Shown here: positions 6,841 through 60,503 of the stretch, in pieces
How the letters are laid out: the number at the start of each line of letters is the position of its first letter
Numbering within the stretch: position 1 is the first letter of the stretch
Source of the DNA: an uncultured Bacteroidales bacterium
Lineage (GTDB): Bacteria > Bacteroidota > Bacteroidia > Bacteroidales > Bacteroidaceae
Assembly (NCBI GenBank): GCA_902779165.1
Contig: CACZAN010000010.1
Span: 1-64,000, forward strand
DNA: 64,000 nt
Reading direction: 5' to 3'
Notes under the pieces: model-generated
What the model saw: only the letters and a program-made list of their open reading frames with translations
The model's database searches: none
Told to the model about the DNA's origin: nothing
Translations under genes and position numbers: made by a program

Positions 6841-6877
6841 AAGCCCACCCCCTCCCCCTCCCTGATGAGGGGAGATG
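6841..6877. repeat. GC-rich palindromic element, intergenic copy (dapB-lepB)
   Basis: AAGCCCACCCC, then a CCCCCTCCCTGATGAGGGGAG hairpin-like core. It belongs to the same family as copies at 10191, 30023, 42190, 47876, 48866, 60373 and 60468. It follows the dapB stop directly and could weaken read-through into lepB. Confidence 0.7.
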
Positions 6878-6922
6878 GGATTGAGATTTTGAAATATTGA
6901 ACATTGAATAGTAGACTTTTCT

Positions 6923-8380
6923 ATGAAGAAGATAAATAAAAAAGTTACTTGGAAAGATTGGGCTAAAATGCTCATCTTCGTGGCACTATACATCTGGTTC
7001 CTCGCGTGGGTTGATGCTTGGTGGGGACTCATCGTCGTTCCCTTTATCTTTGATGCTTACATCACCCATAAGATTCCATGGACGTGGTGGAAGGAGCTGG
7101 AGAATCCTGTCACACGGACTATCATGTCGTGGGTCGATGCTATCGTCTTCGCACTCGTGGCGGTGTATTTTGTCAACATCTATTTCTTCCAGAACTACAC
7201 CATACCTTCATCTTCGCTCGAAAAGAGCCTCCTCGTGGGAGACTACCTCTTCGTATCGAAGATGAGCTATGGCCCTCGCGTGCCTCAGACGCCTTTGCAC
7301 CTGCCCCTGGTGCAGCACACCCTGCCAGGAGGCATGAAGAGCTATAGCGAGCTGATTCAGTGGAAATACAAGCGCGTGTCGCCCAAGCCCGTGCAGCTCA
7401 ACGACATTGTCGTCTTCAACTATCCGGCCGGCGACAGCGTGCTCTCGAATCCGTTCTACCAGAGCACCGACCTCTATGCACTATCGTACGGCTATGGCCG
7501 GCAGATTGTAAAGCAGAATTCCGACTACCTCTCTCAGCTCGACAGCCTTCCGGCGTTGCAGCAGCGGCAGATCTTCAACTTCATCTATACCATTGGCCGC
7601 CAGTACCTCGCGCAGAACCGAGGGGAATTCGGCGACGTCAGCACTCGTCCTGTCGACCGCCGCGAGAACTATGTGAAGAGGTGCGTGGGGCTGCCCGGAC
7701 AGACGCTCGAGATCCGGGACCGCGTCGTCTACCTCGACGGAAAACCCAACAAGGAGCCTGACAATGTGCAATACAACTACCACGTCAAGCTGAAGGGCGG
7801 CCTGCGCGACCTGCCCGAAGAGTTCGCACACGAACTCGGCATCTCCGACGACGATCTGCGCGACCTGCATCAGACCGGCATCCTCCCCCTCACTGCTGCC
7901 ACCCGCGACCAACTGCTGGCCGCAACCAACTATGTGGATACTATTGCTGTCGTAGACATGAGCAGCGACAAGGGAGAAGTATATCCTCTCAATGCCTCTA
8001 CGGGCTGGACGCGCGACAACTACGGACCCGTCTGGATTCCGAAGAAAGGCGAGACCATTCAGCTCACGCTCGAGAACCTGCCGATTTACGAGCGGCCCAT
8101 CCACGCTTATGAAGGCAACAGCCTGCGAGTGGACGACGAGGGACACATCTTCATCAACGACAGCCTCGCCACCAGCTACACCTTCAAGATGGATTACTAC
8201 TGGATGATGGGCGACAACCGCCACAACTCTGCCGACTCCCGCTTCTGGGGCTTCGTGCCAGAGGACCACATCGTCGGAAAACCCATCATGATCTGGCTGT
8301 CCACCGACAAGGACAGAGGATGGCTACGCGGCCACATCCGATGGAACCGACTCTTCCGCTGGGTGGAGAACATCAATTAA
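6923..8380 (+). CDS. lepB: LepB, signal peptidase I
   Basis: Inner-membrane Ser/Lys endopeptidase that removes signal peptides. Two to three hydrophobic segments lie in the first 90 residues (about 15-45 and 70-90). The catalytic Ser98 is in IPSSSLEKSL and the general base Lys252 in NYVKRCVGLPG; the C-terminal box MMGDNRHNSADSRFWGFVPE is intact. At 485 residues it is much longer than the E. coli enzyme because of insertions between the Ser and Lys boxes and before the last box, as is common in Bacteroidetes. Confidence 0.93.
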   Translation: MKKINKKVTWKDWAKMLIFVALYIWFLAWVDAWWGLIVVPFIFDAYITHKIPWTWWKELENPVTRTIMSWVDAIVFALVAVYFVNIYFFQNYTIPSSSLEKSLLVGDYLFVSKMSYGPRVPQTPLHLPLVQHTLPGGMKSYSELIQWKYKRVSPKPVQLNDIVVFNYPAGDSVLSNPFYQSTDLYALSYGYGRQIVKQNSDYLSQLDSLPALQQRQIFNFIYTIGRQYLAQNRGEFGDVSTRPVDRRENYVKRCVGLPGQTLEIRDRVVYLDGKPNKEPDNVQYNYHVKLKGGLRDLPEEFAHELGISDDDLRDLHQTGILPLTAATRDQLLAATNYVDTIAVVDMSSDKGEVYPLNASTGWTRDNYGPVWIPKKGETIQLTLENLPIYERPIHAYEGNSLRVDDEGHIFINDSLATSYTFKMDYYWMMGDNRHNSADSRFWGFVPEDHIVGKPIMIWLSTDKDRGWLRGHIRWNRLFRWVENIN

Positions 8381-8415
8381 CAGGACGAATATTCACACTA
8401 ATCATCATATCCTTT

Positions 8416-9582
8416 ATGAACAAAAACATCACATCAGACATCCGTTATATCGGAGTCGATGACCCCGAACAACATCTCTTCGAAAGCCAATACGTTACCC
8501 CTGACGGGATGTGCTATAATTCCTATGTCATCCTCGATGAGAAGGTGGCAGTCATGGATACCAGCGATGCGCGAACAATGGACACGTGGAAAGCAAACCT
8601 CGCACAAGTCCTACAAGGACGCACGCCCGATTATCTTATCGTACATCATCTGGAGCCCGACCACGCCAGCGGAATTGCACAAGTGGCAGCCCTCTATCCT
8701 GAACTGAAAATCGTCTGCTCCGCAAAGGCCAAGCAGATGATGCCACAGTTCTTTGAGAACGGCATCCAGGAGAGCCGCGTTCTGGCCGTGAAGGAAGGCG
8801 ACACCCTCCCACTCGGCCACCACACGCTGAAATTCATCATGGCACCCATGGTGCACTGGCCGGAAGTCATGGTCAGCTATGACGATACCGACCACGTGCT
8901 CTTCTCTGCCGACGGCTTCGGAAAATTCGGAGTCTATGACTCTGACGCCGACGACTGGGCATGCGAGGCACGCCGATACTACTTCAACATCTGCGGAAAA
9001 TACGGACAGCCCGTCAGCACCCTGCTGAAGAAAGCTGCCGCGCTCGACATCCAGAAAATACTACCCCTGCACGGACCCATACTCGAAGGCGAACAGATGG
9101 CAGAGGCACTGCGACTCTATACCATCTGGAGTGCATACGATGTGGAGACAGAAGGAGTCTTCATCGCACACGCCAGCATCCATGGTAATACTGCTGCTGC
9201 CGCAGAACGACTTGCAGAGATCCTCAAGGAAAAAGGATGCCCGAAAGTCGCCGTCAGCGACCTCTGTCGCGATGACCTCGGCGAAGCCATCGAAGATGCA
9301 TTCCGCTATGGCAAGATGATCTGTATGGCCAGCAGCTACGATGCAGGAGTTTTTCCGCCCATGTATGATTTTCTCCATCACCTCGAAATCAAGGCCTACC
9401 AGAAGCGCCGAGTCGGCTTGGTTGAGAACGGATCTTGGGCACCCAGCGCCGCCAAGACCATGCGAGCCATGATCGAAGAAATGAAGCAAGTGGAAATCAT
9501 CGAGCCCGTAGTCACCCTGCGAGGCAAGATGAAGGAAGCCGACATCCCCCTCCTCGAATCACTGGCTGAAGCCATCCTCTAA
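8416..9582 (+). CDS. A-type flavoprotein (flavodiiron, FprA/ROO-like)
   Basis: Likely reduces O2 (or NO) to protect anaerobic metabolism. The N-terminal metallo-beta-lactamase-like domain keeps the diiron ligands: HLEPDH, the His of VHWPEVM, the Asp of LFSADGFG and the His of LPLHGP. The C-terminal flavodoxin domain begins at about residue 255 with IAHASIHGNTAAAAERL. I chose ATG 8416 (388 residues); an upstream in-frame ATG at 8320 lies inside lepB. No rubredoxin domain is fused, so the electron donor must be separate. Confidence 0.9.
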   Translation: MNKNITSDIRYIGVDDPEQHLFESQYVTPDGMCYNSYVILDEKVAVMDTSDARTMDTWKANLAQVLQGRTPDYLIVHHLEPDHASGIAQVAALYPELKIVCSAKAKQMMPQFFENGIQESRVLAVKEGDTLPLGHHTLKFIMAPMVHWPEVMVSYDDTDHVLFSADGFGKFGVYDSDADDWACEARRYYFNICGKYGQPVSTLLKKAAALDIQKILPLHGPILEGEQMAEALRLYTIWSAYDVETEGVFIAHASIHGNTAAAAERLAEILKEKGCPKVAVSDLCRDDLGEAIEDAFRYGKMICMASSYDAGVFPPMYDFLHHLEIKAYQKRRVGLVENGSWAPSAAKTMRAMIEEMKQVEIIEPVVTLRGKMKEADIPLLESLAEAIL

Positions 9583-9590
9583 ACACCAGA

Positions 9591-9633
9591 AGCCCTATTA
9601 GCTCCCATAAGCCCTATTAGCCCCATTAGCCCC
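9591..9633. repeat. 9-bp tandem repeat AGCCC(C/T)AT(T/A)
   Basis: Four and a half units of a 9-10-base repeat (AGCCCTATT, AGCTCCCATA, AGCCCTATT, AGCCCCATT, AGCCCC) between fprA and the MFS gene. The same unit recurs at 50748-50792 and, on the other strand, at 36281-36339, each time just before a gene start. Confidence 0.8.
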
Positions 9634-9672
9634 AGCTCACACGAACAGCTCTGGAATCGCAACTACTGCCGC

Positions 9673-10887
9673 GTGATGATAGCGAACTTCTCGCTGTTCT
9701 TCGCATTCTATCTGTTGACGCCGTTGCTGCCACTCTATCTCGTGGAGCGATTCGACGCCACAAAGGATGTGGTGGGGCTGGTGCTCAGCGGTTATACTCT
9801 GACAGCCCTGCTTGCGCGGCCCTTCAGCGGATTCCTTGTCGACACCTTCCCCCGAAAGAAGGTGCTTATGGTGTGTTTCTTCCTGTTCTTCATATTCTTC
9901 GGAGGATATCTCGGAGCTGCATCACTCCTTTTGTTCACTATGGTACGGACACTCCATGGAGCGCCCTTTGGAGCCCTGACCGTAGCGAATTCCACGATGG
10001 CAATCGATGTCTTGCCCTCGTCGCGCCGGAACGAAGGCATCGGGTATTATGGCCTCTCCAACAACCTCGCTATGGCTCTCGCACCAACGGTCGCCATCTA
10101 TCTCTATCGCCTCACCGACAATTTTCAGCTCCTCTTCTGGCTCGCGCTAATCATCGCCGGACTTGGATTGCTGGTGGATAGCAGAATACAGACCCAGAAC
10201 CACCCCCGACCCCGCCCGTCAGGGAGTGGAGACCTCCGGCCAGAGTCCAAGCCACATAGCGCAGCCGCTCCCCTCCATCACAAGAGGGGGCGGGGGTGGG
10301 TCTCACTTGACCGTTTCTTCCTCCTGCGCGGCTGGATCCTTGCCCTCAACATGATGTTCTACGGTTTCTGCTTTGGGGTCCTCAGCAACTACCTCGCCAT
10401 CTACAGCAAGGAAGTCATGAGCATCACAGGAGGAACGGGAACGTGGTTCCTACTCGTATCCCTTGGCCTCATCGCTTCCCGCCTGCAGGGAGCCAAAGCC
10501 TTGCGCGAGGGCAAGCTGGTGATGAACGCAGCAGAAGGTACCATCATCTCCTCATTCGCATACCTGCTCTTCGTCGTCTCGCCAAACGCCTTCGGATACT
10601 ACGGATCTGCCATCCTATTGGGATTAGGCAACGGACACCTGTGGCCCGCATTTCAGAATATGATTATCTCTATGGCCCGGCACAACGAGCGCGGAACGGC
10701 CAACTCCACCCTACTCATCTCGTGGGATATTGGAATAGGACTCGGAGTACTCCTTGGAGGACTCGTCAGCGAGCACCTCAGCTACACCGCTGCTTTCTGG
10801 ATGGTAGCCCTTGCACAGCTCCTCGGCACCGCCATCTTCTTCCTCTTCACGCGCACGTCATATAATAAAGGTATACTTACCCTATAA
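9673..10887 (+). CDS. MFS transporter
   Basis: Twelve-helix major facilitator, substrate unknown. The motif between helices 2 and 3 is GFLVDTFPRKKVL. The usable starts are GTG 9673 or ATG 9676. However, the frame stays open back to the fprA stop, and the bases just upstream encode LWNRNYCRV, which looks like genuine N-terminal protein. The original start may therefore have been displaced by the 9-bp repeats. The cytoplasmic loop after helix 6 carries an in-frame palindromic insertion (about residues 173-211). The next gene, a TonB-dependent receptor, starts 31 bases later, suggesting joint uptake or export of one ligand. Confidence 0.8.
   Translation: MMIANFSLFFAFYLLTPLLPLYLVERFDATKDVVGLVLSGYTLTALLARPFSGFLVDTFPRKKVLMVCFFLFFIFFGGYLGAASLLLFTMVRTLHGAPFGALTVANSTMAIDVLPSSRRNEGIGYYGLSNNLAMALAPTVAIYLYRLTDNFQLLFWLALIIAGLGLLVDSRIQTQNHPRPRPSGSGDLRPESKPHSAAAPLHHKRGRGWVSLDRFFLLRGWILALNMMFYGFCFGVLSNYLAIYSKEVMSITGGTGTWFLLVSLGLIASRLQGAKALREGKLVMNAAEGTIISSFAYLLFVVSPNAFGYYGSAILLGLGNGHLWPAFQNMIISMARHNERGTANSTLLISWDIGIGLGVLLGGLVSEHLSYTAAFWMVALAQLLGTAIFFLFTRTSYNKGILTL
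10191..10303. repeat. Two palindromic-element copies inside the MFS gene, in frame
   Basis: Two GC-rich units in opposite orientation, AGACCCAGAACCACCCCCG at the left and CGGGGGTGGGTCT at the right, separated by about 40 bases. Their total length keeps the reading frame, adding a Pro/Arg/Gly-rich stretch (PRPRPSGSGD ... HHKRGRGWVS) to the loop between transmembrane helices 6 and 7. Confidence 0.75.
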
Positions 10888-10918
10888 TATACAAACACAC
10901 TTGAAACAATTATTCGTT

Positions 10919-12823: not shown

Positions 12824-12869
12824 TTCGTGAACATCCTCTGCTAACCAGCGCACAAAATCCTATTATCAC

Positions 12870-28053: not shown

Positions 28054-29229
28054 ATGAATAGCCAGACTTTTACAGAAAGAATAAAGGAAATACGGGCACA
28101 CCACGAGCAGCTGCTGACGCGCACCAACGAGCCACTGACATGGGGGAACGGCATCTATGAGAAATACCAACATCCCATCCTCACCGCGGAACACACACCC
28201 CTGGAATGGCGCTACGACTTCTCGGAGCAGGACAACCCCTACCTGATGCAGCGCATCATGATGAATGCCGTGCTGAATGCCGGAGCCATTAAACTCAATG
28301 GACGCTACCTCGTTGTCTGCCGCGTGGAGGGAGCTGACCGCAAGAGCTTCTTTGCCGTGGCTGAGTCGCCCAACGGAGTGGACAACTTCCGATTCTGGGA
28401 TGAGCCCATCACCTTGCCCGAAGACAGCATCCCTGCCACTAACGTCTACGACATGAGACTCACCCAGCACCAGGATGGATGGATCTACGGCGTCTTCTGC
28501 GCTGAGCGCCACGATGACTCGCAGCCCGGCAACCTCAGCGCCGCCACAGCTACAGCAGGAATTGCCCGCACCAAAGACCTCATCACCTGGCAACGACTGC
28601 CAGACCTTCAGAGCAAGAGCCAGCAACGCAATGTTGTGCTGCATCCAGAGTTCGTGGAAGGCAAATATGCCCTCTACACCCGCCCGCAGGACGGATTCAT
28701 CGACACCGGCAGCGGTGGAGGCATCGGTTGGGCGTTGGTCGACGACATCACCCACGCTGAAGTGAAGGACGAGGTGATCATCAACGCGCGCCACTACCAC
28801 ACCATCCAGGAGGTGAAAAACGGTGAGGGGCCTGCACCCTTGAAGACCCCGAAGGGCTGGTTGCACCTGGCTCATGGAGTGCGTGGTACTGCCGACGGAC
28901 TGCGCTATGTACTATACATGTATATGACAGCTCTCGACGAACCAACCCGTGTCATCGCCCAGCCTGGCGGGTGGTTCCTCGTACCCGAGGGGCAGGAATA
29001 CGTGGGCGACGTGATGAACGTAGCCTTCTCCAACGGATGGATTCTCGATGACGACGGCCGCGTCCTCATCTATTACGCCACAGCCGACACACGTCTCCAT
29101 GTAGCCGTCAGTTCCATCGACCGTCTCATTGATTACTGCCTGAACACTCCGGAAGACGGGTTGAACACTGCAGCAAGTGTGGAAACCATCAAACAACTCA
29201 TCCGCAAGAATCATGGCACACTTAAGTGA
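28054..29229 (+). CDS. GH130 4-O-beta-mannosyl-glucose phosphorylase
   Basis: 391 residues, no signal peptide, five-bladed propeller family. Phosphorolyses mannosyl-glucose to alpha-mannose-1-phosphate and glucose in the cytoplasm. Motifs: WGNGIYEKY at 30-38, [29 protein letters not shown] with the catalytic-type Asp, and the phosphate-binding region near RNVVLHPEF and ARHYHTIQE. The pairing with cellobiose 2-epimerase in the same locus favours subfamily 1 activity on Man-Glc over mannan oligosaccharide phosphorylase; subfamily assignment by alignment would settle it. Its last 17 bases overlap the symporter start. Confidence 0.92.
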
Positions 29230-30676
29230 AAAAATCGGCTACGGCTTGGGCGACATGTCGTCCTCGATGTTCTGGAAGGTCTTTTCATACTACCTCCCTT
29301 TCTTCTACAGCAACGTCTTCGGACTCTCACTCATCGATGCCGGAGTGCTCGTTCTCGTCACACGTATCTGGGATGCCGTCAGCGACCCCCTGATGGGAGT
29401 CATCGCCGACCGCACCCAAACGCGATGGGGAAAGTACCGTCCCTACCTGCTTTGGATTGCACCCTTGTTCAGCATTTGCGGTATCCTGCTTTTCACCACA
29501 CCCGACTGGACCTACAGTGCCAAACTCATCTACGCCTACGTCACTTACATCTTGATGATGACCGTCTATACCGCCATCAACGTCCCCTACGGCGCCATGC
29601 TTGGCGTAATGACAGCCGACCCACAGGAAAAGACCGTATTCTCCTCCTTCCGTATGTTCTTCGCCTATGGAGGCTCCTTCATCGCGCTGGCCGCTTGGGA
29701 ACCCCTGGTTGGCTTCTTCAAAGCTAACAGTCTTTGCGGAGAAAACGCCGGGAACACCTCTGCTGCTGTTGCCTGGCAGCACGCGATGATGGTCATCGCT
29801 ACAGCATGCCTCATCCTGTTCATCCTTACTTTTCGCCTAACGCGTGAGCGACTGAAAACTGTCAGCACCGTCTCCGTCGGCAGCGACTTCAAGGCCCTCC
29901 TCTCCAATCGTCCATGGTGGATCCTCATCGGCGCCGCCCTCTGTTTCAACCTTTTCAGCACCGTCCGCGGTGCCACCGTAGCCTATTACTTTGCCGACAT
30001 CATCGGTTTCGATGCGCAGCTCCATCTCCCCTCCCTTGGGGAGGGGCAAGGGGTGGGCTTCCTGTTCTACGCAGGTCTGTTCCTTAGTGTAGGCGAAGTC
30101 GCCAATATGGCAGGCGTAGCGTTGACCGTCGCCTTAGCCCGTCGTTTCGGCAAAAAGTCCCTGTTCATGGGCGTTAATGCGGCACTGGTCGTACTCAGCA
30201 CCACATTCTTTTTCATTCCCATTTCACAGACAGGCTTCTGGCTCATGTTGCTGTTCCAAATACTGATTTCCATACTCACTGGAATCATGTCGCCACTCAT
30301 CTGGTCGATGTATGCCGACGTCAGCGACTACGCCGAATATCACTACCACACAGCCTCCACAGGTCTCATCTTCTCCTCGTCCTCGATGGCTCAGAAATTC
30401 GGAGGTGCCTTCGGCGGAGCTGCCGTCCTCTGGCTACTCTCGGCCTGTGGCTACACCCCACGTACCGATGAACAATTAGCAGCCCAGGCCCTCATCACCC
30501 AGCCCGACTCCGCCCTCCTCTGCCTCCGCTATCTGATATCCTTCATCCCCGCTGCCGTCGCACTGATCGCCATACTTGTCTGCTATTTCTACCCCCTCAC
30601 GACTGCTCGAGTCAGGAACATCAGTGAGCAACTGAAAAGCATACGCTGCACGATCACCGCAGACAACGATGCTTAG
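29213..30676 (+). CDS. GPH-family cation:glycoside symporter (probable mannobiose importer)
   Basis: Twelve-helix inner-membrane transporter of 487 residues beginning [20 protein letters not shown], with the family motif [28 protein letters not shown] at about 48-75. I chose ATG 29213, which matches the usual N-terminus; it overlaps the phosphorylase gene by 17 bases, implying coupled translation. B. fragilis has a similar transporter next to its epimerase and GH130. A palindromic repeat is inserted in frame before helix 8. Confidence 0.9.
30023..30059. repeat. Palindromic element inside the symporter gene, in frame
   Basis: Core CTCCCCTCCC-TTGG-GGAGGGG followed by a GGGGTGGGCTT tail. It encodes [12 protein letters not shown] at about residues 272-283, between transmembrane segments 7 and 8. 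Confidence 0.8.
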
Positions 30677-42150: not shown

Positions 42151-42993
42151 ATGATAAGAACCATTCGAAGACAGCTCGCAAAAGTGAATACTCCCTCCCT
42201 CACAGGGAGGGTGAGGGGTGCGTCTGTGTGTGTCCTCTTCCTCTGCCTGCTTATCTCCTGCACCGGTATCTCGGAAGAAGAGCGCTATATCTACATGCCG
42301 CCCGTTCGGAGCGCCCACGCCGTGCTCATCGAGGACTTCACGGGGCAGCGCTGCATCAACTGCCCCAACGCCGCCCTCGAAATCGAGAAGCTGAAAGAGC
42401 AGTACGGCGCAGACACCATCATCGCAGTAGGTATTCATAGCGGCCCGCTCGCCGTCTACTCCCGAGGCAATGTTCTCGGCCTCAGGACGGAAGAGGGCGA
42501 CGAATACTACGAGCACTGGAAAATAGAACAGGAGCCCATGGGGTACATCAACCGCCGCGGCTCACCCGCCACCCCCGACCAATGGGGAACCCTCGTACGC
42601 GAGGCCATACAAGTGCCCACCGATTTGAAAATCACCCTCGCACCCGTCAAGGACAGCCTCGACAGCAAGCTCCGAGTCCACCTGACCATCGTCAACGGCG
42701 AACCCATCAAAGGACGCCTGCAGCTATGGCTCACGGAGTCGAAGATCACCGCCCTGCAGATGATGCCCGACGGCACCGCCAACCCGTCCTACGTCCACAA
42801 CCACGTCTTCCGCCGCAGCATCAACGGCACGTGGGGCGAGGACTACGTGGCCGCAGAGGGCGAAATCCGCGACCTCGACTTCGAGTGCGAGCTGGACGAG
42901 ACGTGGAAGCAAGAGAACCTCGCCGTTGTAGCCTTCATCGAGAGCGCAAACGGTGTTGAACAGGTGGCAGAAAAAGTCATAATAATCCAATAA
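42151..42993 (+). CDS. Omp28-related outer-membrane lipoprotein
   Basis: 280 residues. A lipobox LLISC (Cys34) follows a hydrophobic stretch, so it should be lipidated. The mature part starts with the thioredoxin-like Omp28 signature VLIEDFTGQRCINCPNA, whose CxxC matches the partner TlpA. The first 25 residues are unusual: they include TPSLTGRVRGAS encoded by a palindromic repeat, which lengthens the region before the signal peptide core. Confidence 0.8.
   Translation: MIRTIRRQLAKVNTPSLTGRVRGASVCVLFLCLLISCTGISEEERYIYMPPVRSAHAVLIEDFTGQRCINCPNAALEIEKLKEQYGADTIIAVGIHSGPLAVYSRGNVLGLRTEEGDEYYEHWKIEQEPMGYINRRGSPATPDQWGTLVREAIQVPTDLKITLAPVKDSLDSKLRVHLTIVNGEPIKGRLQLWLTESKITALQMMPDGTANPSYVHNHVFRRSINGTWGEDYVAAEGEIRDLDFECELDETWKQENLAVVAFIESANGVEQVAEKVIIIQ
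42190..42222. repeat. Palindromic element inside the Omp28 gene, in frame
   Basis: CTCCCTCCC-TCACA-GGGAGGG core with a GTGAGGGGTGCGTCT tail. It encodes PSLTGRVRGAS upstream of the lipoprotein signal core, residues about 15-25. Confidence 0.8.
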
Positions 42994-45288: not shown

Positions 45289-45410
45289 AAGTATTCTGTT
45301 AAGTTGACATATAATATTTTCTACTGCTAATGGCTAATGTTTTTTTACATCTAATGGCCATGAATGGGGACATATAATGGTCATGAATAATATGCTGGTT
45401 AGGTTTCAAA
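45289..45410. other. Repeat-rich gap between the epimerase and GxxExxY genes
   Basis: About 120 bases with recurring TAATGG(C)CAT / TAATGGTCATGAAT motifs. No ORF and no TTTGC promoter for the epimerase gene is seen. Confidence 0.4.
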
Positions 45411-45418
45411 TATACAGG

Positions 45419-45889
45419 TTAGGTTTCTTCCTCCAAGCCATAATAATCACTATTGGGGTCATCATAGACTGGGTTCATATTACGGTCGAGCAGTACACAT
45501 TCATTCGTTTCTTCATTCAACCAGTAACGTTCTCCTTGCAGAAGCGGCTGGCCAAAATTGATGAGCAAGCCGATAGGAGTACGTGTGAGTCGCATGTAGT
45601 TGAAGAGTTGCGCCCGATGTGCCGAGATGAGCTCCGACACGGACTTCAGCTCTATCATAATATCACCTGCCATAATGTCTGGCTGATAGAATTTCGCCAT
45701 GAGTTTACCTTTATAGTAACAGGGAACCTGGGCCTCCATCTTGTTTTCGATACCTCTTTCAAGAAGTTCCACGTGCAAGGCCTCTGTGTAGAAAGCCTCT
45801 GCCAGCCCCCAATTCAGTTCGTCCTGAACGGTCATTGCTGCACCAATAATACGATAAACGAGATTATAGTATGATTTAGGATCTGTCAT
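45419..45889 (-). CDS. GxxExxY family protein
   Basis: 156 residues from ATG 45889. An upstream in-frame ATG at 45943 would add 18 residues from an ATTCATG-repeat region and is less likely. The name motif is GLAEAFY at about residue 27. ELKSV with the preceding PDIMAGDIMIE gives a PD-(D/E)xK-like core, so it may be a nuclease relative. These proteins are common in Bacteroidetes, often near short repeats, and their function is unknown. It has no obvious link to sialic acid although it lies inside that operon. Confidence 0.8.
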   Translation of the reverse strand: MTDPKSYYNLVYRIIGAAMTVQDELNWGLAEAFYTEALHVELLERGIENKMEAQVPCYYKGKLMAKFYQPDIMAGDIMIELKSVSELISAHRAQLFNYMRLTRTPIGLLINFGQPLLQGERYWLNEETNECVLLDRNMNPVYDDPNSDYYGLEEET

Positions 45890-45985
45890 CTTATCTAATA
45901 ATTCATGAGCATTTATATATTCATGAACATTATATGTACCCATTCATGGATATTCGTGTGAAAAAATTCCAATTCAAATTTTAGT

Positions 45986-48814
45986 TCATTTTTCATTCAA
46001 TGTCTTCCATGTCAGCCCCTTCTGTTCCTCCCTTTGTGGAATAAACACACTGAGGAGAAGGGCGACGAGGACACTGACGAACATCGAGACAAAGCCGAAG
46101 AGGAGGAAGTTGGCCTGCGTGTAGAAGTTCATATAGAAGACCGTTGCTGTGCCGCACAGGAAACCAATGAGAGCCGCACGCGACCCTATTCGCGGGAAGA
46201 AGATGCCCATGAGGAACAGACCGCCAATGGCTCCGCTGAGGAGGCCGAGAATGGTGTTGAAGTAGTCGAGAAGCGACTGAATATCAACGGTAGCCATCAG
46301 CCAAGCGATTGCCATTCCAAGCAGACCGGCACAGATTCCCGCAATGCGAGCGGTGCGGACTCCCCCTTCGCCTTTCCACTTCGACCATAGATCCACGGTA
46401 AAGGCGGTGGAGATGGAGTTGATATTGGAGGCGATGGTGCTCATTGTGGCAGCGAAGACGGCAGCAATGAGAAGTCCCGCGAGGCCGGCTGGCAGCTGGC
46501 TCATCATGAAGAAGGGGAAGATGGCGTCGCCTTTCGCCATTGTGATATCGAGCTCGGCGGGGTGCGTCTTGAAGAAAGTATAGAGGCCCGTTCCTATCGT
46601 GAAGAAAGCGATGGTCACCACGACAGACATCAAGCCGTTGGTGAGGATTCCGCGAGCCGCACTCTTCTCGTCGCTGGTGGTCAGATAGCGCTGGATAACC
46701 GTCTGGTCGCTGGTGTAGCTGATGAGGTTGTTGGCCAAGCCGCCGAGGATGACGACCCACCAAGTGGCATTGACGAAGTCGAAGGGATTCTCGGAATTGA
46801 AGAGGAAGAGGCGGAACTTATCGTGCTCGGTGGCAATCTGCCAGAAGTCCGAAGCACCGTTATCGCCCGTGTTCACAATCAGATACACCGCCGCAAGAAC
46901 AGCTCCCCCGACAAGAATGATACCCTGAATGACGTCGCCCCACACAACTGCCTCTACCCCACCCATTGTGCAATAGAGAATGGTGATGAGAGCCATCAGC
47001 GCTATACAGATATATATATTGATACCCGTGACGGCAGTCATGGCGAGGGACGGCAGGAAGAGAACCAGTGCCGTGCGGGCCACCATGAAGACGATGAACA
47101 GGATGCTGGCCATCAGGCGCGTGGCCGAGTTGAAGCGGCGTTCGAGGTACTCATAAGCGGTGGTGACGTTCAGCCGGCGGAAGAAAGGCAGATAATACCT
47201 GATGACGGGGAACGAAACCAAAAGGATACAAATCTGCATGGGATAGTACGTCCAGTCGGTGGCGTAGGCCTTGGCGGGAATACTCATATAGGTGATGGCG
47301 CTGAGCATCGTGGCAAAAATGCTGATGCCCGCTGCCCACCAGGGAATGCGACCGCCCCCCTTGAAGAAGTCGTCGGAGGAATTGGAAGCACGCTTCATGA
47401 AGTAGTAACCCAGATAGACCATTCCTAAGAGATAAACGATGAGCACCGTCCAGTTCAGCCAACCGAAATGAGCCGTGTAGGTGATATCCACCCGTGTGGC
47501 ATCAGCAGAACGCACTCCCGGCTTCTCCTCGCCGCCAATAACGAGGGCAGAAAGGGTGCCGGAGGGCGACACCAGCGGCACCACGGCAGCTCCGGCGCGA
47601 GCGATGAGGGGCGAATCGAAGACCTCGGCCCAAGAGTCGGTAACGGTGTGATAGACAAGGATACTGCGGCGAAATTGATACCACTCGGGCTCCTGGGTCA
47701 TGTAGTAGTAAACTTCCTCGCGCAGTTGTGCCAGTCGCTGGGCGGTCTGAATCGTGGTATCAGAGAGCTGGTAGTTGCGATCAAGTGCCTGCTCGAAGAT
47801 GCGTTTGTTGACACCGCCAAAGCAAAGGACGTGGGCTGCGCCGGAGGAGATGGCAGAAGCGCCGACTAAAGAGAGAAGACCCTCTCCCTGCTCACCCGTA
47901 AGGGGGAGAGCCTCGCTTCGTTCGGAAACTGACGCGCTGCCACTTCCCTCCCTATCGTGAGGGGGCTGGGGGTGGGTCTGCATTAAACTGGTAGCAAACC
48001 AATTCCCCTTCCTGGGATCGTAGTAGACGCCGTTGGCAACGGCCTTGCGGTAGCGCGGGTCAAAGCCTCCGAGGAGGTAGAAATTGCTGCCGATGGCACC
48101 TTTCTGCACCACCGCACAGGGTTGCACACGAGCGGGGCCCGGCACATCAGGCAACTCTTCCCAAGCAGCACCCGTCTGTGCCTCGAACCAGGAAGAGGGT
48201 AACGGCCACTTCAGGCGGAAAGCCTTGCGGTTGGGAGTCCCATTATGCTGACCTCCAGCGGCGTAGATAAACCCGTCGCCATAAGCGGTAGCAAAGTTAT
48301 CGAGGCTGACTGGCAGTGGCGGAAGCGCACTACTGACCACGGCCCCTGTAGCATCAAGGGTCAGGAGAGCCGCAAAATCCTCGCTCTTCTTGCCGTCGGA
48401 CGTACCACCCAGACATACCACACCCTCGGGAGTAGAAACGCTGGCGCCATAAGCGAGAGCACACGGCAAGGAACCCACGCGAGACCAACCTGCCGACGGA
48501 GTCGCAGCATCTGCTGCAATGGCATAAATGTCGGTGTAGAAAACTTTTTGGCCGCCCTCTGCCGCTGGCGTTTCAGGGAAGTTACAGCCACCAGCCACAA
48601 GGACATAATCACCCGCCGCCCCAGAAAAAGCTCCGCTCACGCCCTGACCGCCAAAAGCAGAAAGAGAGGGAACGGGCAAGAAAGAGGCATCATTGAAGCG
48701 ATGAGCCGACCCACCCCCCTGCTCCTCCTGGGCATGGAGGGGAGTAGTATCCTGAGCTATTGAGAGGCCAAAGGATGAAACATAAGCCAAGAGAAAAAAC
48801 AACAATTTCTTCAT
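45986..48814 (-). CDS. Kelch-type sialate mutarotase fused to SSS sodium symporter
   Basis: 942 residues. After a signal peptide (ending SIAQ), residues about 40-435 form a kelch beta-propeller of the NanM/N-acetylneuraminate epimerase type (VLVAGGCNFPETP, EGVVCLGGTSDG, FIYAAGGQHNG, FYLLGGFDPRY). Residues about 445-940 are a sodium:solute symporter with some 13-14 helices (MSIPAKAYATDWTYYPMQ, TDSDQT-like YTSDQTVIQRYL). The propeller should face the periplasm, deliver the right sialate anomer and pass it to the transporter. A repeat insertion lies in the propeller at about residues 279-313. Confidence 0.85.
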   Translation of the reverse strand: MKKLLFFLLAYVSSFGLSIAQDTTPLHAQEEQGGGSAHRFNDASFLPVPSLSAFGGQGVSGAFSGAAGDYVLVAGGCNFPETPAAEGGQKVFYTDIYAIAADAATPSAGWSRVGSLPCALAYGASVSTPEGVVCLGGTSDGKKSEDFAALLTLDATGAVVSSALPPLPVSLDNFATAYGDGFIYAAGGQHNGTPNRKAFRLKWPLPSSWFEAQTGAAWEELPDVPGPARVQPCAVVQKGAIGSNFYLLGGFDPRYRKAVANGVYYDPRKGNWFATSLMQTHPQPPHDREGSGSASVSERSEALPLTGEQGEGLLSLVGASAISSGAAHVLCFGGVNKRIFEQALDRNYQLSDTTIQTAQRLAQLREEVYYYMTQEPEWYQFRRSILVYHTVTDSWAEVFDSPLIARAGAAVVPLVSPSGTLSALVIGGEEKPGVRSADATRVDITYTAHFGWLNWTVLIVYLLGMVYLGYYFMKRASNSSDDFFKGGGRIPWWAAGISIFATMLSAITYMSIPAKAYATDWTYYPMQICILLVSFPVIRYYLPFFRRLNVTTAYEYLERRFNSATRLMASILFIVFMVARTALVLFLPSLAMTAVTGINIYICIALMALITILYCTMGGVEAVVWGDVIQGIILVGGAVLAAVYLIVNTGDNGASDFWQIATEHDKFRLFLFNSENPFDFVNATWWVVILGGLANNLISYTSDQTVIQRYLTTSDEKSAARGILTNGLMSVVVTIAFFTIGTGLYTFFKTHPAELDITMAKGDAIFPFFMMSQLPAGLAGLLIAAVFAATMSTIASNINSISTAFTVDLWSKWKGEGGVRTARIAGICAGLLGMAIAWLMATVDIQSLLDYFNTILGLLSGAIGGLFLMGIFFPRIGSRAALIGFLCGTATVFYMNFYTQANFLLFGFVSMFVSVLVALLLSVFIPQREEQKGLTWKTLNEK
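47876..47978. repeat. Two palindromic-element copies inside the mutarotase-symporter gene, in frame
   Basis: Left unit GACCCTCTCCCTGCTCACCC and right unit GAGGGGGCTGGGGGTGGGTCT face each other with about 30 bases between. The insertion encodes PQPPHDREGSGS ... ALPLTGEQGEGLL in a propeller loop without breaking the frame. Confidence 0.75.
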
Positions 48815-48865
48815 TGGGCAAACAACAAATTAATTCAACCAACTGATTTGATTATACAAAGGTAT

Positions 48866-48902
48866 CCACCCTCTCCCTTACAGGGAGGGCGGGGGTGGGT
48901 CT
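48866..48902. repeat. Palindromic element between nanA and the mutarotase-symporter gene
   Basis: CCACCCTCTCCCTTACAGGGAGGG followed by CGGGGGTGGGTCT. It fills the middle of the 89-base intergenic gap in the operon. Confidence 0.75.
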
Positions 48903-49880: not shown

Positions 49881-50013
49881 GCAAAGATACGGAGAAATCA
49901 TGAATGCTCCAAATTTCAGGTGATATATTGTCGTAAAATCACGAAAAAAAGACGGATGAAACAGAGATGTAGCCCTAAAATTTGGTCAAGTCGCAGAAAA
50001 GCAGTACCTTTGC
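49881..50013. promoter_or_regulatory. Divergent promoters of the nan operon and the queuosine transporter
   Basis: Minus strand: TATCTTTGC at 49881-49889 with TTTG at 49910-49913 (20-base spacing). Plus strand: TTTG at 49981-49984, 20 bases, TACCTTTGC at 50005-50013. Between them the sequence is AT-rich. No preQ1 riboswitch was seen in the plus-strand leader. Confidence 0.7.
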
Positions 50014-50032
50014 CGCCGTTTAACGCATAGGG

Positions 50033-50057
50033 GTACCCTAGCCCACCCCCTTTAACA
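50033..50057. repeat. Partial palindromic-element remnant
   Basis: TAGCCCACCCCCT matches the arm of the GC-rich family (compare AAGCCCACCCCC at 6841), but the hairpin half is missing. It lies in the leader of the queuosine transporter gene. Confidence 0.4.
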
Positions 50058-50069
50058 AAACAAGGAACA

Positions 50070-56306: not shown

Positions 56307-56340
56307 CTCCATTTTTCCAAGAAACCACAGTTTCACATAG

Positions 56341-56378
56341 AAAAGAGCGCACCCATTTCGTAACGGGTGCGCTCTTTT
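56341..56378. terminator. Bidirectional terminator
   Basis: Perfect 14-bp stem AAAAGAGCGCACCC / GGGTGCGCTCTTTT with a 10-base loop. T-runs on both strands serve the lipoprotein gene and the convergent Spy-like operon. Confidence 0.9.
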
Positions 56379-56419
56379 ATTCTGTTATAACCTGAAAGGG
56401 ACTTCAGTGAGAGCGGATG

Positions 56420-56902: not shown

Positions 56903-56943
56903 CGTTCTCATTAGTTTTCGTTTATAAAGAAAGTGCGCAGGTC

Positions 56944-57360
56944 TTAATAGGCCTCGGTCAGATAGTATTCAATGTGCTGGTTGTCGACCAGCTCGTAGTC
57001 GAGTATTGCATTGATGTCCTCCTCTGAGTAGTCGAAGGCCGGTGTCTCCGTCTGGGCAGCCAGCTGTGCACCATCGCCCGCCGGATTACGCACTCCGTAG
57101 AGCCATGCTCCGCCTACGCAGACTGCCACGGCAGCTACTGCTGCAGCATAGCGCAAGGTCCGACGCCAGAGCGGAAGTTTCACCACACGAGTCTGGTGCT
57201 CAACGGGTTCTGACAGGAGCCCCTCATCTGCCAAACGATTCATCATCCGCTCCGTGAATCCCTCGAAATAGCCTTCGGGAACCTTGAACGGACGGCGACC
57301 GCTGTCGTGTTCTCTTATTATTTTCTCTTCCTGTATCATATCTTTTATGTTTTGTTTCAC
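56944..57360 (-). CDS. Probable membrane anti-sigma factor
   Basis: 138 residues with a cytoplasmic N-terminal half (VPEGYFEGFTERMMNRLAD), one hydrophobic segment at about 71-90 (RYAAAVAAVAVCVGGAWLYG) and an acidic periplasmic tail. It directly follows an ECF sigma gene (28-base gap) and shows the anti-sigma layout, but no named anti-sigma motif was found. Confidence 0.6.
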   Translation of the reverse strand: MKQNIKDMIQEEKIIREHDSGRRPFKVPEGYFEGFTERMMNRLADEGLLSEPVEHQTRVVKLPLWRRTLRYAAAVAAVAVCVGGAWLYGVRNPAGDGAQLAAQTETPAFDYSEEDINAILDYELVDNQHIEYYLTEAY

Positions 57361-57388
57361 TTGTTTGACTGCAATAGAAGGAAAAAGT

Positions 57389-57931
57389 TTAATCGCGTGC
57401 GTGGAAAAAATCAGATATTTTTCTGACTGCGTGGTGATAGGAGGCTTTCAGCGCTCCCACACTGGTTCCCAACAAATCACTCATGTCCTCATATTTCATC
57501 TCTTCAAAGTACTTGAGGTTGAAGACCTGGCGCTGGCGGTCGGGCAGCGTGGAAATAGCTTCCTGGAGCATACGTTCTGTCTCGTCGCCGTCAAAGTAGG
57601 GGTCACTCTCCAAGCGTGCAGCCACCCCTTCTGCCGCCTCTTCGTCCAAGCTCGTCGTTTGGCGGTTGCGATCGAGGAAGTTCAGCGTCTCGTTATTGGC
57701 AATGCGGAAGAGCCAGGTGCCCAACTGTGAATCGCCCCTGAAACCAGACAGCCCTGTCCAAGCCTTCAGAAACGTATTCTGCAGCACATCGTCGGCATCG
57801 TCGTGCGAGAAGACCATACGACGAATCTGCCAGTAGAGCTGTTCCTTGAAGTGCTCTACCACCGCCGCAAAGGCACGTTCGCGGGTGCGCTCGTCGTGCA
57901 GTTGTGATATTATTAGATTCTCATTCCACAT
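57389..57931 (-). CDS. ECF-type RNA polymerase sigma factor
   Basis: 180 residues. Region 2 has DDADDVLQNTFLKAWTGLSGF and LGTWLFRIANNETLNFLDR; region 4 has LPDRQRQVFNLKYFEEMKYEDMSDLLGTSVGALKASYHHAV. First gene of a leftward operon with the anti-sigma-like and Spy-like genes. Its own promoter reads TATCTTTGC. Confidence 0.9.
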   Translation of the reverse strand: MWNENLIISQLHDERTRERAFAAVVEHFKEQLYWQIRRMVFSHDDADDVLQNTFLKAWTGLSGFRGDSQLGTWLFRIANNETLNFLDRNRQTTSLDEEAAEGVAARLESDPYFDGDETERMLQEAISTLPDRQRQVFNLKYFEEMKYEDMSDLLGTSVGALKASYHHAVRKISDFFHARD

Positions 57932-57993
57932 AAAATAATGTTCACGCGCAGGCGATAAAGGTCTTTTTCACACTGCAAATAAAGATTTCGGGC

Positions 57994-58033
57994 GCAAAGA
58001 TAGTGTTTTCTCGTCGAAAAACAGTAATTTTGC
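57994..58033. promoter_or_regulatory. Divergent promoters of the sigma operon and DUF486 gene
   Basis: Minus strand TATCTTTGC followed by GCCCGAAATC at 57994-58002; plus strand TAATTTTGC followed by GCCCGAATTT at 58025-58033. The two elements are only 22 bases apart. Confidence 0.65.
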
Positions 58034-58110
58034 GCCCGAATTTCAATGAAAACGGTATTTCGTAGTACGAATTCCGCTCTCCATAAACCTCAATTCGAAT
58101 TTTCGTAGCT

Positions 58111-58476
58111 ATGCAAGGATTTCAAACCATCCTACTTCTGCTCACAAGCAACATCTTCATGACGCTGGCCTGGTACGGCCACTTGCGCCTGCAACAGGCG
58201 GGCATCAGTACCCACTGGCCCCTCATCGCGGTCATCGCGTTCTCGTGGGGCATTGCTTTTATTGAGTACTGCTTCGCCGTACCTGCAAACCGAATAGGCT
58301 ATGATGCCAACGGCGGCCCCTTCTCTTTAGTGCAGCTGAAGGTGATTCAGGAAATCATCTCTCTAGTGATTTTCACCCTTATTGCGGGCTTCCTCTTCCA
58401 GGGACAGAGCTTGCATTGGAACCACTTGGCAGCTTTCATCTGCCTGGTGCTCGCTGTTTATTTTGTCTTTAAATAG
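58111..58476 (+). CDS. DUF486/DMT family small membrane protein
   Basis: 121 residues with four predicted helices. WYGHLRLQ, WGIAFIEYCFAVPANRIGY and FQGQSLHWNHLAAFICLVLAVYFVF are typical of the family. Substrate unknown. Converges with the ACT-domain gene, leaving six bases between. Confidence 0.85.
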   Translation: MQGFQTILLLLTSNIFMTLAWYGHLRLQQAGISTHWPLIAVIAFSWGIAFIEYCFAVPANRIGYDANGGPFSLVQLKVIQEIISLVIFTLIAGFLFQGQSLHWNHLAAFICLVLAVYFVFK

Positions 58477-58482
58477 GAGGCA

Positions 58483-58911
58483 CTAAGCCAGGGCCGTCAA
58501 GGCCTCTTCGCCAATACTCTTGAGGTTATTGGCCTTGATGACCTGAGCTGCGCTTTCGTTGTTGTCTGTGCGGAAGATCAGGATTCCCTTGCCGCGCAGC
58601 AAGAACGAATACATATAGGTGATGCTGATGTCTGCCTGACTGAACATCTTCACGGCATCAGCAGCGCGGCCGGGCTCGTTGTCGAGTTCGAGGGCGAAGA
58701 CTTCGCTGAGGGCCACAGCCACACCTGCATTCTTCAGTTCGTCGCAAGCACGCATGGGCTCGCTACAGATGAGACGATAGATGCCGTACTCGGCCGTATC
58801 GGCAATAGTAGAGGCAATAATTTGAATACCAGCCTGTTTCAGGGCGTCAAGAACCTTGATGAGTGTGCCGGAACGGTTCTCAATGAAAATGGAGAGTTGA
58901 TGGATAGTCAT
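58483..58911 (-). CDS. ACT-domain protein (two ACT repeats)
   Basis: 142 residues with two ACT folds, residues 1-70 (IHQLSIFIENRSGTLIKVLDAL) and 72-142 (VFALELDNEPGRAADAVKMF). It probably binds an amino acid. In Bacteroidales such genes are often next to phenylacetate-CoA ligase and indolepyruvate oxidoreductase genes; the two ligases follow here, the oxidoreductase does not. Confidence 0.85.
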   Translation of the reverse strand: MTIHQLSIFIENRSGTLIKVLDALKQAGIQIIASTIADTAEYGIYRLICSEPMRACDELKNAGVAVALSEVFALELDNEPGRAADAVKMFSQADISITYMYSFLLRGKGILIFRTDNNESAAQVIKANNLKSIGEEALTALA

Positions 58912-58920
58912 AGTTTTATT

Positions 58921-59075
58921 TTACGATTTGACGATTTAACGATTTGGCTATTTGACGATTTAACGATTTGGCTATTTGACGATTGGGCTATTGTGTGATT
59001 TAAGAGCAATTGATAATCTGCAATTTTCAATAATTCAATATTTCAATTTTCAATTCTCAATATTTCTATTTTCAA
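58921..59075. repeat. 24-bp tandem repeat and ATTTTCAAT repeats
   Basis: GACGATTTAACGATTTGGC plus TATTT is repeated twice exactly (58930-58953, 58954-58977), with a shortened third copy. TTTCAATAATTCAATATTTC-type repeats follow to 59075, similar to 36345-36386. No ORF. The stretch separates the ACT gene from the first phenylacetate-CoA ligase on the same strand. Confidence 0.7.
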
Positions 59076-60437
59076 TTACTGATACACTTTGCGCTTGTCG
59101 ACTACACGAACGGCCTTACCTTCGCTTACGGGCAGCGTGCCACGAGGAACGAGCTTCACAATGGGCGTAAGCAGTATCTCATCCTTCAGCTGACGGCGGA
59201 TTTCGCGCTCCAGAGCCTGCAGCTTCTTGTAGTCGTCAGTGGGTTCGGCGAGTTCTACTTCTACGGTCATGTTGTCGTTTTCTTCATCGGTGGTCAGCGT
59301 GATGAGGTAGTTGTTGCCCAGCTCCTCGAAGTGCATCAGGATCTTCTCTATCTGAATCGGGAAGATGTTAACGCCTCGCAGCACCATCATATCGTCCGAA
59401 CGGCCACGCATGCGATCGAGGCGGATGTGGTTTCGGCCACAAGGACAGGAACGGCCCAACACGCGCGTGAGGTCACGGGTACGATAGCGCAACAGGGGCA
59501 TAGCTTCGCGACACAGGGTGGTCAGCACCAGCTCGCCAATCTCGCCGTCGGGCACGGGTTCCAGTGTCTCGGGGTCCACAATCTCTACGATATAATAATC
59601 TTCCCAGAAATGCAAGCCGTTCTGTTCGGGACATTCGAAGCCCACACCAGGACCGCACATCTCGCTCATTCCAAAGCTGTTGTAGGCCTTCACGCCCATC
59701 ATTTCCTCAATGCGCCTGCGCTGTTCCTCGGAGTGAGGTTCTGCGCCGATAGCCAGCACCTTGAGTTTCGTGTCTTTGCGAGGATCTACGCCCTGTTCCT
59801 TCATCACCTCGTACAAGCGGGTGACGTAACTGGGAACTGCATGTATGGCAGTAGTACCGAAGTCCTTGATGAACTTTATCTGCCTCAAGGAGTTACCTGC
59901 TGCGGCAGGCACGGTGAGCATCCCCAATTTCTCAGCTCCATACTGGAATCCCAGACCGCCAGTGAACATTCCGTAGCCAGAGGAATTCTGGAAGACATCA
60001 TCGGGACGCAGGCCTACCATCCACAGATTTCTGGCCACCTGGTTTGCCCACTCGTCCAAGTCCTTCTGGGTATGGAGAATGACGGTGGGGTTACCCGTGG
60101 TGCCGGAAGACGAGTGCAGACGAACGCAGTCGCGCAGGGGCACACACGCCATCCCGAAAGGATAGGTCGAGCGCAGGTCGTCCTTCGTTGTGAAAGGCAG
60201 TTTCCGTACGTCGTCCAACGTCTGGATATCCTCGGGGGTGATGCCTGCCTCAGCAAACTTCTTGCGGTAGAATTCATTGTTCATGCAGTGGCGCACAGTC
60301 TTCTTGAGGCGTTCCAGTTGCAAAGCCTCAATTTCTGCACGCGACAGCGTTTCAGTTTCAGGATTGAAGAAAAGACCCACCCCATCCCCTCCCGTGAGGG
60401 AGGGGTGAGGCTTGCGCATTGTTTCGTTTTTGTCCAT
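59076..60437 (-). CDS. paaK: Phenylacetate-CoA ligase
   Basis: ANL-family adenylate-forming enzyme of 453 residues; activates phenylacetate (or a related aryl acid) with ATP and CoA. LHSSSGTTGNPTVI is the P-loop-like A3 motif, YNSFGMSEMCGPGVGFEC and YRTRDLTRVL follow. The first 22 residues (MDKNETMRKPHPSLTGGDGV) are encoded by a palindromic repeat; homologues are expected to begin near FFNPETETL. The true start may have been lost when the repeat inserted. Confidence 0.9.
   Translation of the reverse strand: MDKNETMRKPHPSLTGGDGVGLFFNPETETLSRAEIEALQLERLKKTVRHCMNNEFYRKKFAEAGITPEDIQTLDDVRKLPFTTKDDLRSTYPFGMACVPLRDCVRLHSSSGTTGNPTVILHTQKDLDEWANQVARNLWMVGLRPDDVFQNSSGYGMFTGGLGFQYGAEKLGMLTVPAAAGNSLRQIKFIKDFGTTAIHAVPSYVTRLYEVMKEQGVDPRKDTKLKVLAIGAEPHSEEQRRRIEEMMGVKAYNSFGMSEMCGPGVGFECPEQNGLHFWEDYYIVEIVDPETLEPVPDGEIGELVLTTLCREAMPLLRYRTRDLTRVLGRSCPCGRNHIRLDRMRGRSDDMMVLRGVNIFPIQIEKILMHFEELGNNYLITLTTDEENDNMTVEVELAEPTDDYKKLQALEREIRRQLKDEILLTPIVKLVPRGTLPVSEGKAVRVVDKRKVYQ
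60373..60415. repeat. Palindromic element at the 5' end of the first paaK gene, in frame
   Basis: AGACCCACCCC-ATCC-CCTCCCGTGAGGGAGGGG-TGAGG. Read on the coding strand it encodes PHPSLTGGDGVGLF at residues 10-23. Confidence 0.85.
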
Positions 60438-60467
60438 ATTTTATCAGTTTTTTACCCAACCCGCAGG

Positions 60468-60503
60468 TCTCCCCTCCCTCACGGGAGGGGTCGGGGGTGG
60501 GTC
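60468..60503. repeat. Palindromic element between the two paaK genes
   Basis: CCCCTCCC-TCAC-GGGAGGGG core followed by TCGGGGGTGGGTCT. Only about 90 bases separate it from the copy in the first paaK gene, in opposite orientation. It reaches the stop region of the second ligase gene. Confidence 0.85.

Follow-up and report, generated by a model that had tools for sequence, protein, structure and literature searches.

How can GC-rich palindromes lie inside several genes without breaking their reading frames, and how did they get there? The question is raised by a stretch of 64,000 nucleotides from an uncultured Bacteroidales bacterium (G000:C10:1-64000, the whole of which is called the window here), in which such palindromes recur within and between genes. 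Rickettsia and Wolbachia are the best-known carriers of palindromic elements in frame, and there, as we read it, weak selection is a ready excuse for them. The palindromes of the window probably belong to a family of mobile but non-autonomous elements carried by rumen Bacteroidaceae, in which two GC-rich hairpin arms of about 35-45 nt converge on a variable spacer. The source genome of the window is a draft of 3,589,683 bases in 75 contigs, 86% complete and Bacteroidaceae-like, and the genomes compared with it are also drafts, mostly metagenome-assembled genomes (MAGs).

The palindromic pair and its copies

The outer motif of the unit, AGACCCACCCC, was found at 73 places in the source genome (35+38), whereas the pattern read backwards was found at 0 and about 3.3 places were expected from the base composition of the window. 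The bare palindrome CCCCTCCC-N0-12-GGGAGGGG occurred at 38 genome places against 0 in the control. A covariance model, R1, was built from 30 typed unit sequences of the same genome (one entered twice, the window units included) and listed at least 130 units at E<=0.01, a floor, as 150 of 1323 candidates were scored. Among these 130, neighbouring units at most 350 bp apart were convergent in 37 cases, tandem in 1 and divergent in 0, and 74 of the 130 sat in such pairs. This almost exclusive convergent orientation points to a full element of two inverted hairpin arms around a variable spacer. The initial annotation had described a unit of 35-40 bp; this unit exists, but it is mostly half of a larger element, and what moves is probably the whole inverted pair, spacer included.

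The outer lengths of the 37 pairs cluster at 115-118 bp (8 pairs) and at 151-164 bp (14 pairs); with three pairs added by hand, 40 were read out, measuring 103-284 bp. Subfamilies are distinguished by their outer letters (AGACCC.., AGACTC.., AGCCC..) and by the loop, and several pairs mix subfamilies. The arms form terminal inverted repeats in which 32-35 of 35 positions match (nine copies of the source genome), and in single-stranded DNA both arms pair as one stem of about 35 bp, with z values of -10.6 and -11.2 for two 115-bp copies, -9.3 for the pair at the window gene paaK and -3.0 for a decayed pair in a window MFS gene. In two cases the likeness of the arms exceeds what a common subfamily would give: both arms of one pair (C27:18881) contain an identical nested insert of about 42 nt, and in locus L101 the two arms at the nanM start are identical over 44 nt and of a type seen at this start otherwise in L102. 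We read both cases as signs of copying between arms. The inner arm end, GGTTACCTTTG, resembles the Bacteroidetes -7 box, TAnnTTTG, and might belong to a promoter. Pairs located just before an ATG in L013, L022, L084, L090 and L258 share a spacer core, ATTAAAAG(C)AATGACCCTAT..AAGCGC, and make up a second, extragenic subclass with a conserved spacer.

R1 matches were found in 24 of 151 genomes of the family, representing 9 of 30 genera (E<=1e-4, stricter filters). The exact pattern was present in 9 of 25 genomes of the genus and in none of 16 genomes from other families of the order. The window nanM has its closest orthologues in gut MAGs, many of them from ruminants, whose titles read Bacteroidaceae, Prevotellaceae or Bacteroidales.

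Copies inside genes and around start codons

Unrelated genes and genomes hold copies that agree in their spacer and vary little at their ends, and the in-gene copies that were read keep one frame. All eight 115/118-bp pairs of the source genome in the R1 list lie inside open reading frames (ORFs), in one common frame and starting at residue 70 or later; by a mechanical rule, 17 of the 40 pairs fall wholly inside ORFs of at least 100 codons. A DNA search recovered the 115-bp sequence, spacer included (query 610-724), at a minimum of 26 distinct places outside the source genome among the matches listed, and for 16 of these 26 the alignment runs from 608-611 to 723-726, no more than 3 nt from the element ends. 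We read 22 copies, nine from the source genome and 13 of the 26 listed places, from ten other genomes. Every one is surrounded by an open frame (at least 92 codons long, with several truncated where a short piece of sequence ends), and 21 share one frame in either orientation, x-DSPPALPVREG-[15-16]-APSLTGRAGGES; the exception, in G092, uses another frame. The C-terminal part of the peptide reads (A/T)PSLTGRAGGES or a close variant in 21 of the 22.

Over the 18 copies of 114 nt, the mean pairwise difference was 0.06-0.16 in the arms and 0.41-0.57 in the spacers. When reversed, the element stays open in the same frame in 5/5 and 10/13 of these standard-length copies. The pN/pS value of the spacer peptide was 0.71 over the 18 copies, and purifying selection on it is not claimed; the third-position excess within one orientation was not significant (2756 of 20000 shuffles).

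The hosts named by Pfam are PurL, a FecR-like protein, an MFS transporter, MutS2, an RND pump, a DHH phosphoesterase, a 4Fe-4S protein, HisRS and MazG. In HisRS, where the element covers residues 80-118, the alignment with the solved chain 6nhi breaks at query residues 77/122 and chain residues 83/95; in the RND pump (element at 427-465) the alignment with 5t0o breaks at query 426/465 and chain 423/432.

As a mechanism, we propose that the element would move as a folded single strand, aided by an enzyme encoded elsewhere. Insertion would be wide, and copies in genes would survive only in a tolerated frame within a loop, a linker or an N-terminal tail, being translated as flexible loops or N-terminal extensions. 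Local copying may swap sequence between the arms of one copy and between those of different copies, which would keep arms alike while spacers drift, and single units are best read as one arm remaining after decay or deletion. It is conceivable, although we hold it rather doubtful, that in the 115-118-bp subclass a transposable element has become adapted to coding sequence: entering genes in a single codon phase, it would act as a peptide of about 38 residues (DSPPALPVREG-variable-SAPSLTGRAGGES), mobile and ambidextrous, that spreads among the essential genes of a gut lineage which is free-living, with arms kept alike by copying within and between loci and with start-type relatives split around native starts, giving new N-terminal tails and leaders.

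In the window, R1 gave 11 matches at E<=0.0025; these are partly expected by construction, as window units are in the model, and the genome motif count is the independent test. The paired matches lie on opposite strands, at 10196(+)/10303(-), 47877(+)/47979(-), 48707(+)/48902(-) and 60373(+)/60504(-). The features are as follows.

6841-6880, plus strand: single unit of the AAGCCCACC type (R1, 37.4 bits), just 3' of the stop codon of ORF 6084-6839
10190-10303, unstranded: convergent pair in the MFS transporter gene 9673-10887(+), with R1 arms at 10196-10234 (degraded) and 10265-10303 (Pfam MFS_1)
30021-30060, minus strand: single unit (R1) in the GPH symporter gene 29177-30676(+), encoding a 13-residue peptide (Pfam MFS_2)
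42187-42225, minus strand: single unit (R1) near the N-terminus of the Omp28-like gene 42151-42993(+)
47877-47979, unstranded: convergent pair in the nanM-SSF fusion gene 45986-48814(-), with R1 arms at 47877-47916 and 47940-47979
48707-48902, unstranded: convergent pair bracketing the nanM-SSF start, with R1 arms at 48707-48747 and 48865-48902
60373-60504, unstranded: convergent pair bracketing the start codon of paaK1 (gene 59076-60437, minus strand), with R1 arms at 60373-60410 and 60466-60504 (Pfam AMP-binding)

By sequence and by R1, a unit is present at every place listed by the initial annotation except 50033. That list had given one arm each for 10191, 47876 and 48866 and had counted the arms of 60373-60504 (60373 and 60468) as separate copies; all four are convergent pairs. 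The unit at 48866 is real, and its partner arm, at 48707, falls within the first part of the nanM-symporter gene, in a pair that was joined by hand because of its weak left arm (24 bits). The half copy suspected at 50033 is no element, as a conserved leader, GGGGTA..CCACCCCCTTTAACAAAACAAG or close to it, stands there in 6 of 6 relatives with aligned flanks. This leader (window positions ~49995-50062), upstream of the gene at ~50073, may be a structured 5' untranslated region.

The MFS, GPH symporter, Omp28, nanM-SSF and paaK genes each form one open frame whose sole stop is the final one, in agreement with the in-frame position first proposed for their units. The unit at 6841 is outside ORF 6084-6839, which we take to be dapB, just past its stop codon. 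The MFS pair encodes about QNHPRPRPSGSGDLRPESKPHSAAAPLHHKRGRGWVS, and the Omp28-like unit encodes NTPSLTGRVRGAS, directly before a hydrophobic stretch. The pair at 47877-47979 corresponds to residues 279-313 of nanM, in a propeller loop, where the segment is 34 residues longer than in the orthologue L100. In a model of the nanM propeller (33 sequences; mean predicted local distance difference test, pLDDT, of 82.9), runs of at least three residues below pLDDT 50 occur only at 15-36, which is the end of the signal peptide plus a unit, and at 283-312, inside the pair, although low pLDDT is to be expected of any poorly aligned insert. Exposed-loop placement was obtained for nanM only, from this model.

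At the nanM start, the start codon and signal peptide lie in the spacer of the pair: the upstream arm (48865-48902) lies past the nanA stop, between it and the nanM start, and the downstream arm (48707-48747) follows the signal peptide at about residues 23-36. Locus L103 is without both arms, yet retains the start and the signal peptide. In paaK, the protein begins with MDK as in G059, followed by the arm and then by FFNPE, and the pair extends to the stop codon of the upstream gene 60503-61837(-). Other genes with a pair around the start encode NadC, HisB, HolB, an amidohydrolase and a MacB-like permease. The options for start-type pairs are two insertions or inverted local copying. Use of a later start could leave N-terminal copies untranslated; the nanM arm is exempt from this doubt because the signal peptide precedes it. 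A mobile signal-peptide cassette was considered for nanM, one start spacer of which looked near-identical in several species, and was dropped: 10 of 101 genomes of the genus matched, seven of them weakly and partially, with the three strongest at nanM.

Filled sites, empty sites and other explanations

Filled and empty alleles are seen at C35:17590, where the pair is absent from G002, G003 and G016 (41 vs 178 nt between flanks 92-98% alike) and present in G093, with a different pair in G104. At the start of the DHH gene (C16:65939), 15 nt in G059 correspond to 154 nt in the source genome, and by eye several relatives have other pair types. In the linker of the same protein (C16:65358), the allele of the source genome is longer than that of 16 of 19 relatives, always by a multiple of three (51-111 nt); the linker in G056 and G015 resembles remnants of the element. 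Of three loci given for the MFS gene two aligned, and the loop of the source genome exceeds theirs by 42 and 48 nt.

In the nanM loop, the shortest forms among near orthologues hold 20 residues between the anchors (L100, L112, L117 and L118), and L098, 86.6% alike to L100 over the aligned parts, has an in-frame pair of 105 nt belonging to another palindrome family. The loop has 45 residues or more in 15 of 30 nearer orthologues vs 1 of 50 farther ones, with palindromes in part of them only, and a perfect hairpin with 7-nt arms was found in the segment in 10 of the 30 vs 1 of the 50. At the paaK junction, 12 of 20 loci were comparable: four have 15-22 nt, two a pair (G057 and G015), one another single unit (G056) and five other sequence. 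The GPH symporter unit sits in a hypervariable loop; among 23 relatives with both flanks, one has a clear unit, two a weaker palindrome and 20 other sequence, with similar loop length.

Together, the copy number, the 115-bp copies in unrelated genes of 11 genomes, the filled and empty sites and the shared frame support the initial annotation's view of a mobile, non-autonomous element that tolerates translation in the manner of those of Rickettsia. Occupation of the same sites in homologues, which had been named as evidence against mobility, was found in part: the paaK, symporter, PurL and nanM copies are shared in places. PurL has a copy at the same place in G019, which is probably shared by descent.

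Several further observations weigh against a family of mobile elements as we describe it. Movement and translation are both read from sequence. No consistent target-site duplication was found in 21 copies, two of which have a direct repeat of 4 or 6 nt, and no R1 unit lies in the 3.2-3.3-kb loci around three Y1_Tnp-like genes of the genome. The greater similarity of arms within pairs than between pairs (0 of 5000 permutations) counts in favour of the family, but in part it reflects subfamilies. The filled allele at C35:17590 replaces about 41 nt, so it is a replacement and not a clean insertion; the length difference in the DHH linker never equals the 114 or 117 nt of the element; and the symporter loop of the source genome ranges from 6 nt longer to 21 nt shorter than those of relatives, a zero net insertion. 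Some copies of the window are shared with sister species: the paaK pair is common to 2 of the 12 comparable relatives within the genus, and by eye several relatives have an arm similar to that of the source genome after the nanM signal peptide. The idea that the farther nanM orthologues are all free of palindromes was ruled out by L137 (titled Prevotella sp.), the one in 50, in which this loop contains a GC-rich hairpin that is perfect; a hotspot and a shared origin are not separated here. The Omp28 and paaK units are N-terminal with an in-frame GTG in or beside the arm, and a later start is possible for both. Finally, native starts lie within the start-type pairs of nanM and paaK, an arrangement that insertion of a finished element in one step leaves unexplained, and the strong matches to one start spacer of the nanM type are all at nanM.

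The alternative that survives best, which we nevertheless judge improbable, is that these are hypervariable, tolerant sites and not a mobile element: loops, linkers and junctions would fill with low-cost GC- or AT-rich sequence, and palindromes would be made locally by template switching between nearby inverted sequences. The nanM loop, the symporter loop, the DHH linker and the paaK junction do hold repeat types that differ per genome, including AT-rich TCAATTGTCAATT repeats and unrelated palindromes, and local copying would suit the pair whose two arms carry one nested insert. However, the same 115-bp sequence, spacer included, stands in unrelated genes of the 11 genomes read, and a local origin cannot yield that; the arms may be shaped by local copying even so. 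Two observations on the fillers of these sites are recorded in their own right. In other species (L220, L221, L223, L227, L230, L231; L065, L075, L076), AT-rich repeats (TCAATTGTCAATTATCAATT, TTTTCAACTTTCAAC and similar) occupy the paaK junction and, in frame, the symporter loop; they are a second type of repeat at these tolerant sites. In or near the DHH phosphoesterase gene of L346, L347, L348, L352 and L353, a palindrome CCCGAGGG or CCCTCGGG recurs in an inverted repeat (CCCGAGGGNNNNCCCTCGGG), followed in L347 and L353 by ACGGTAACGG.

Somewhat less credit goes to a true system of Bacteroidota in which doublets of repetitive extragenic palindromic (REP) sequences, or REPINs, are moved by a REP-associated tyrosine transposase (RAYT) of the same genome. 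The inverted doublets, the variable spacer, the long hairpin and the absent target duplication would all suit it, and Y1_Tnp is represented in the genome by one clear gene plus two weak hits. The clear gene, in L005 (G000:C5:81182-81523), is by eye flanked by hairpins of its own (GTAGCCAGCCG..CGGCTGG and GCCCCAGCGGGGC) and appears as a RAYT with GTAG-type REPs unrelated to the family of palindromic pairs. A RAYT flanked by the same repeat was not found among the three Y1_Tnp hits of this 86%-complete genome, since none of the three loci holds a family unit, and we therefore rejected the RAYT as mover; it is possible that one lies in the missing part of the genome. The GTAG-like tag, moreover, is not 5' of the hairpin.

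We regard as unlikely a cis-acting RNA device, in which arms around a start codon form an mRNA stem controlling the translation or stability of the gene that follows, with coding copies as by-products. It would account for the pairs that bracket the starts of nanM, paaK, NadC, HisB, HolB and the MacB-like gene, and for upstream arms that, by eye, often run into GGTTACCTTTCAAGAATTG or similar. Yet the 17 of 40 pairs that are wholly inside ORFs, the position of all eight 115-118-bp pairs at residue 70 or beyond and the close relatives without a pair at the same gene speak against it, as does Rfam, which gave zero matches at the gathering score for the window and five loci. An assembly or binning artefact could be imagined because the genomes are drafts, but elements at matching orthologue places in assemblies from different hosts and projects make it scarcely credible.

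Other features of the window were seen in passing. A PDDEXK_3 (GxxExxY-like) gene of 174 residues lies on the minus strand between 49-nt inverted repeats (45341-45966); its homologue elsewhere, in L104, is at the nanA-nanM junction, and the two may represent a mobile cassette. The region at ~14.5-29.2 kb shares 97% identity with G110:C72 across 14 kb and 95% with G059:C14 across 11 kb, with mostly 66-85% in the other relatives listed, and is a probable recent horizontal transfer; no R1 unit was found within it. A perfect 34-nt inverted repeat, AGGTACGCGATAGGGATTCGTTGTCGCGTACCTA, occurs at 718-751 and 1055-1088, 303 nt apart, and a similar sequence, GCGTGCCTTTAGGTACGCGACA, stands beside the Y1_Tnp gene in L005.

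Comparison with known palindromic elements

No report of these elements or peptides in Bacteroidaceae was found in the open-licence literature, as judged from listings. Similar behaviour is common in gut Bacteroidaceae, where there are many sequenced relatives, hosts such as HisRS, several palindrome families per loop and both filled and empty alleles. An old question becomes testable here, namely how a cell survives the entry of selfish DNA into its proteins and whether such DNA acquires a use there; some of the host genes are expected to be essential, and their reading frame is left unbroken. It is also a warning for annotation, as differences in loops or N-termini between orthologues in Bacteroidaceae can be mobile DNA.

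The palindromic elements of Rickettsia (RPEs) and Wolbachia measure ~105-146 bp, have terminal inverted repeats and a long stem-loop and comprise several families; they lie between and inside genes, in frame in conserved proteins, at exposed positions and with different groups in orthologues (PMC2229807, PMC3767692). The present family is like them in its size (eight pairs of 115-118 bp), inverted ends, stem-loop, division into families, location both between and inside genes, in-frame fusion within conserved protein genes, different groups in orthologues and, for nanM by a model, exposed position, a likeness by description (PMC2229807, PMC3767692). It differs in its host, which is a gut Bacteroidaceae and not an intracellular alphaproteobacterium such as Rickettsia or Wolbachia, in being GC-rich with each arm itself a hairpin, and in the one frame shared by copies of one subclass, mostly open when reversed (PMC2229807, PMC3767692).

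Classical miniature inverted-repeat transposable elements (MITEs) such as Correia, ERIC and RUP are likewise small and non-autonomous, with terminal inverted repeats, stem-loops and some in-frame fusions, all features seen here; unlike them, and unlike MITEs of DDE transposons, the present copies show neither target duplication (21 copies) nor TA ends (PMC2229807).

With REPINs the family shares inverted doublets, over-represented here at 37 convergent against 1 tandem and 0 divergent, a spacer less conserved than the arms, a hairpin of the whole unit and single units as likely remnants (PMC3116915). REPINs are described as extragenic and linked to a RAYT, whereas here many copies are coding, among them all eight 115-118-bp pairs of the source genome, and no RAYT is linked (PMC3116915). 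By inspection, the 5' side of the hairpin is AGACCCACCCC or AGACTCTCCCC, with AGTGG or AGTAG 3' of the hairpin; in REPs a GTAG/CGTC-type tag stands 5' of the hairpin (PMC3733652), and no such tag is in that place here. Membership of the REPINs thus fails on three of four features, namely tag position, RAYT linkage and location.

GTAG- and CGTC-REPs are known inside ORFs as intragenic dimers or groups adding 20 to 30 residues, CGTC repeats have been reported in Bacteroidetes, and such repeats supply stop codons or N-termini (PMC3733652). Intragenic dimers or groups, added residues and repeat-supplied N-termini are also found in the present family, but neither tag stands at its outer end, and the coding frame shared by 21 of 22 copies has no counterpart in the available part of that account (PMC3733652). 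The family thus appears to behave like the Rickettsia palindromic elements and to be REPIN-like in its anatomy.

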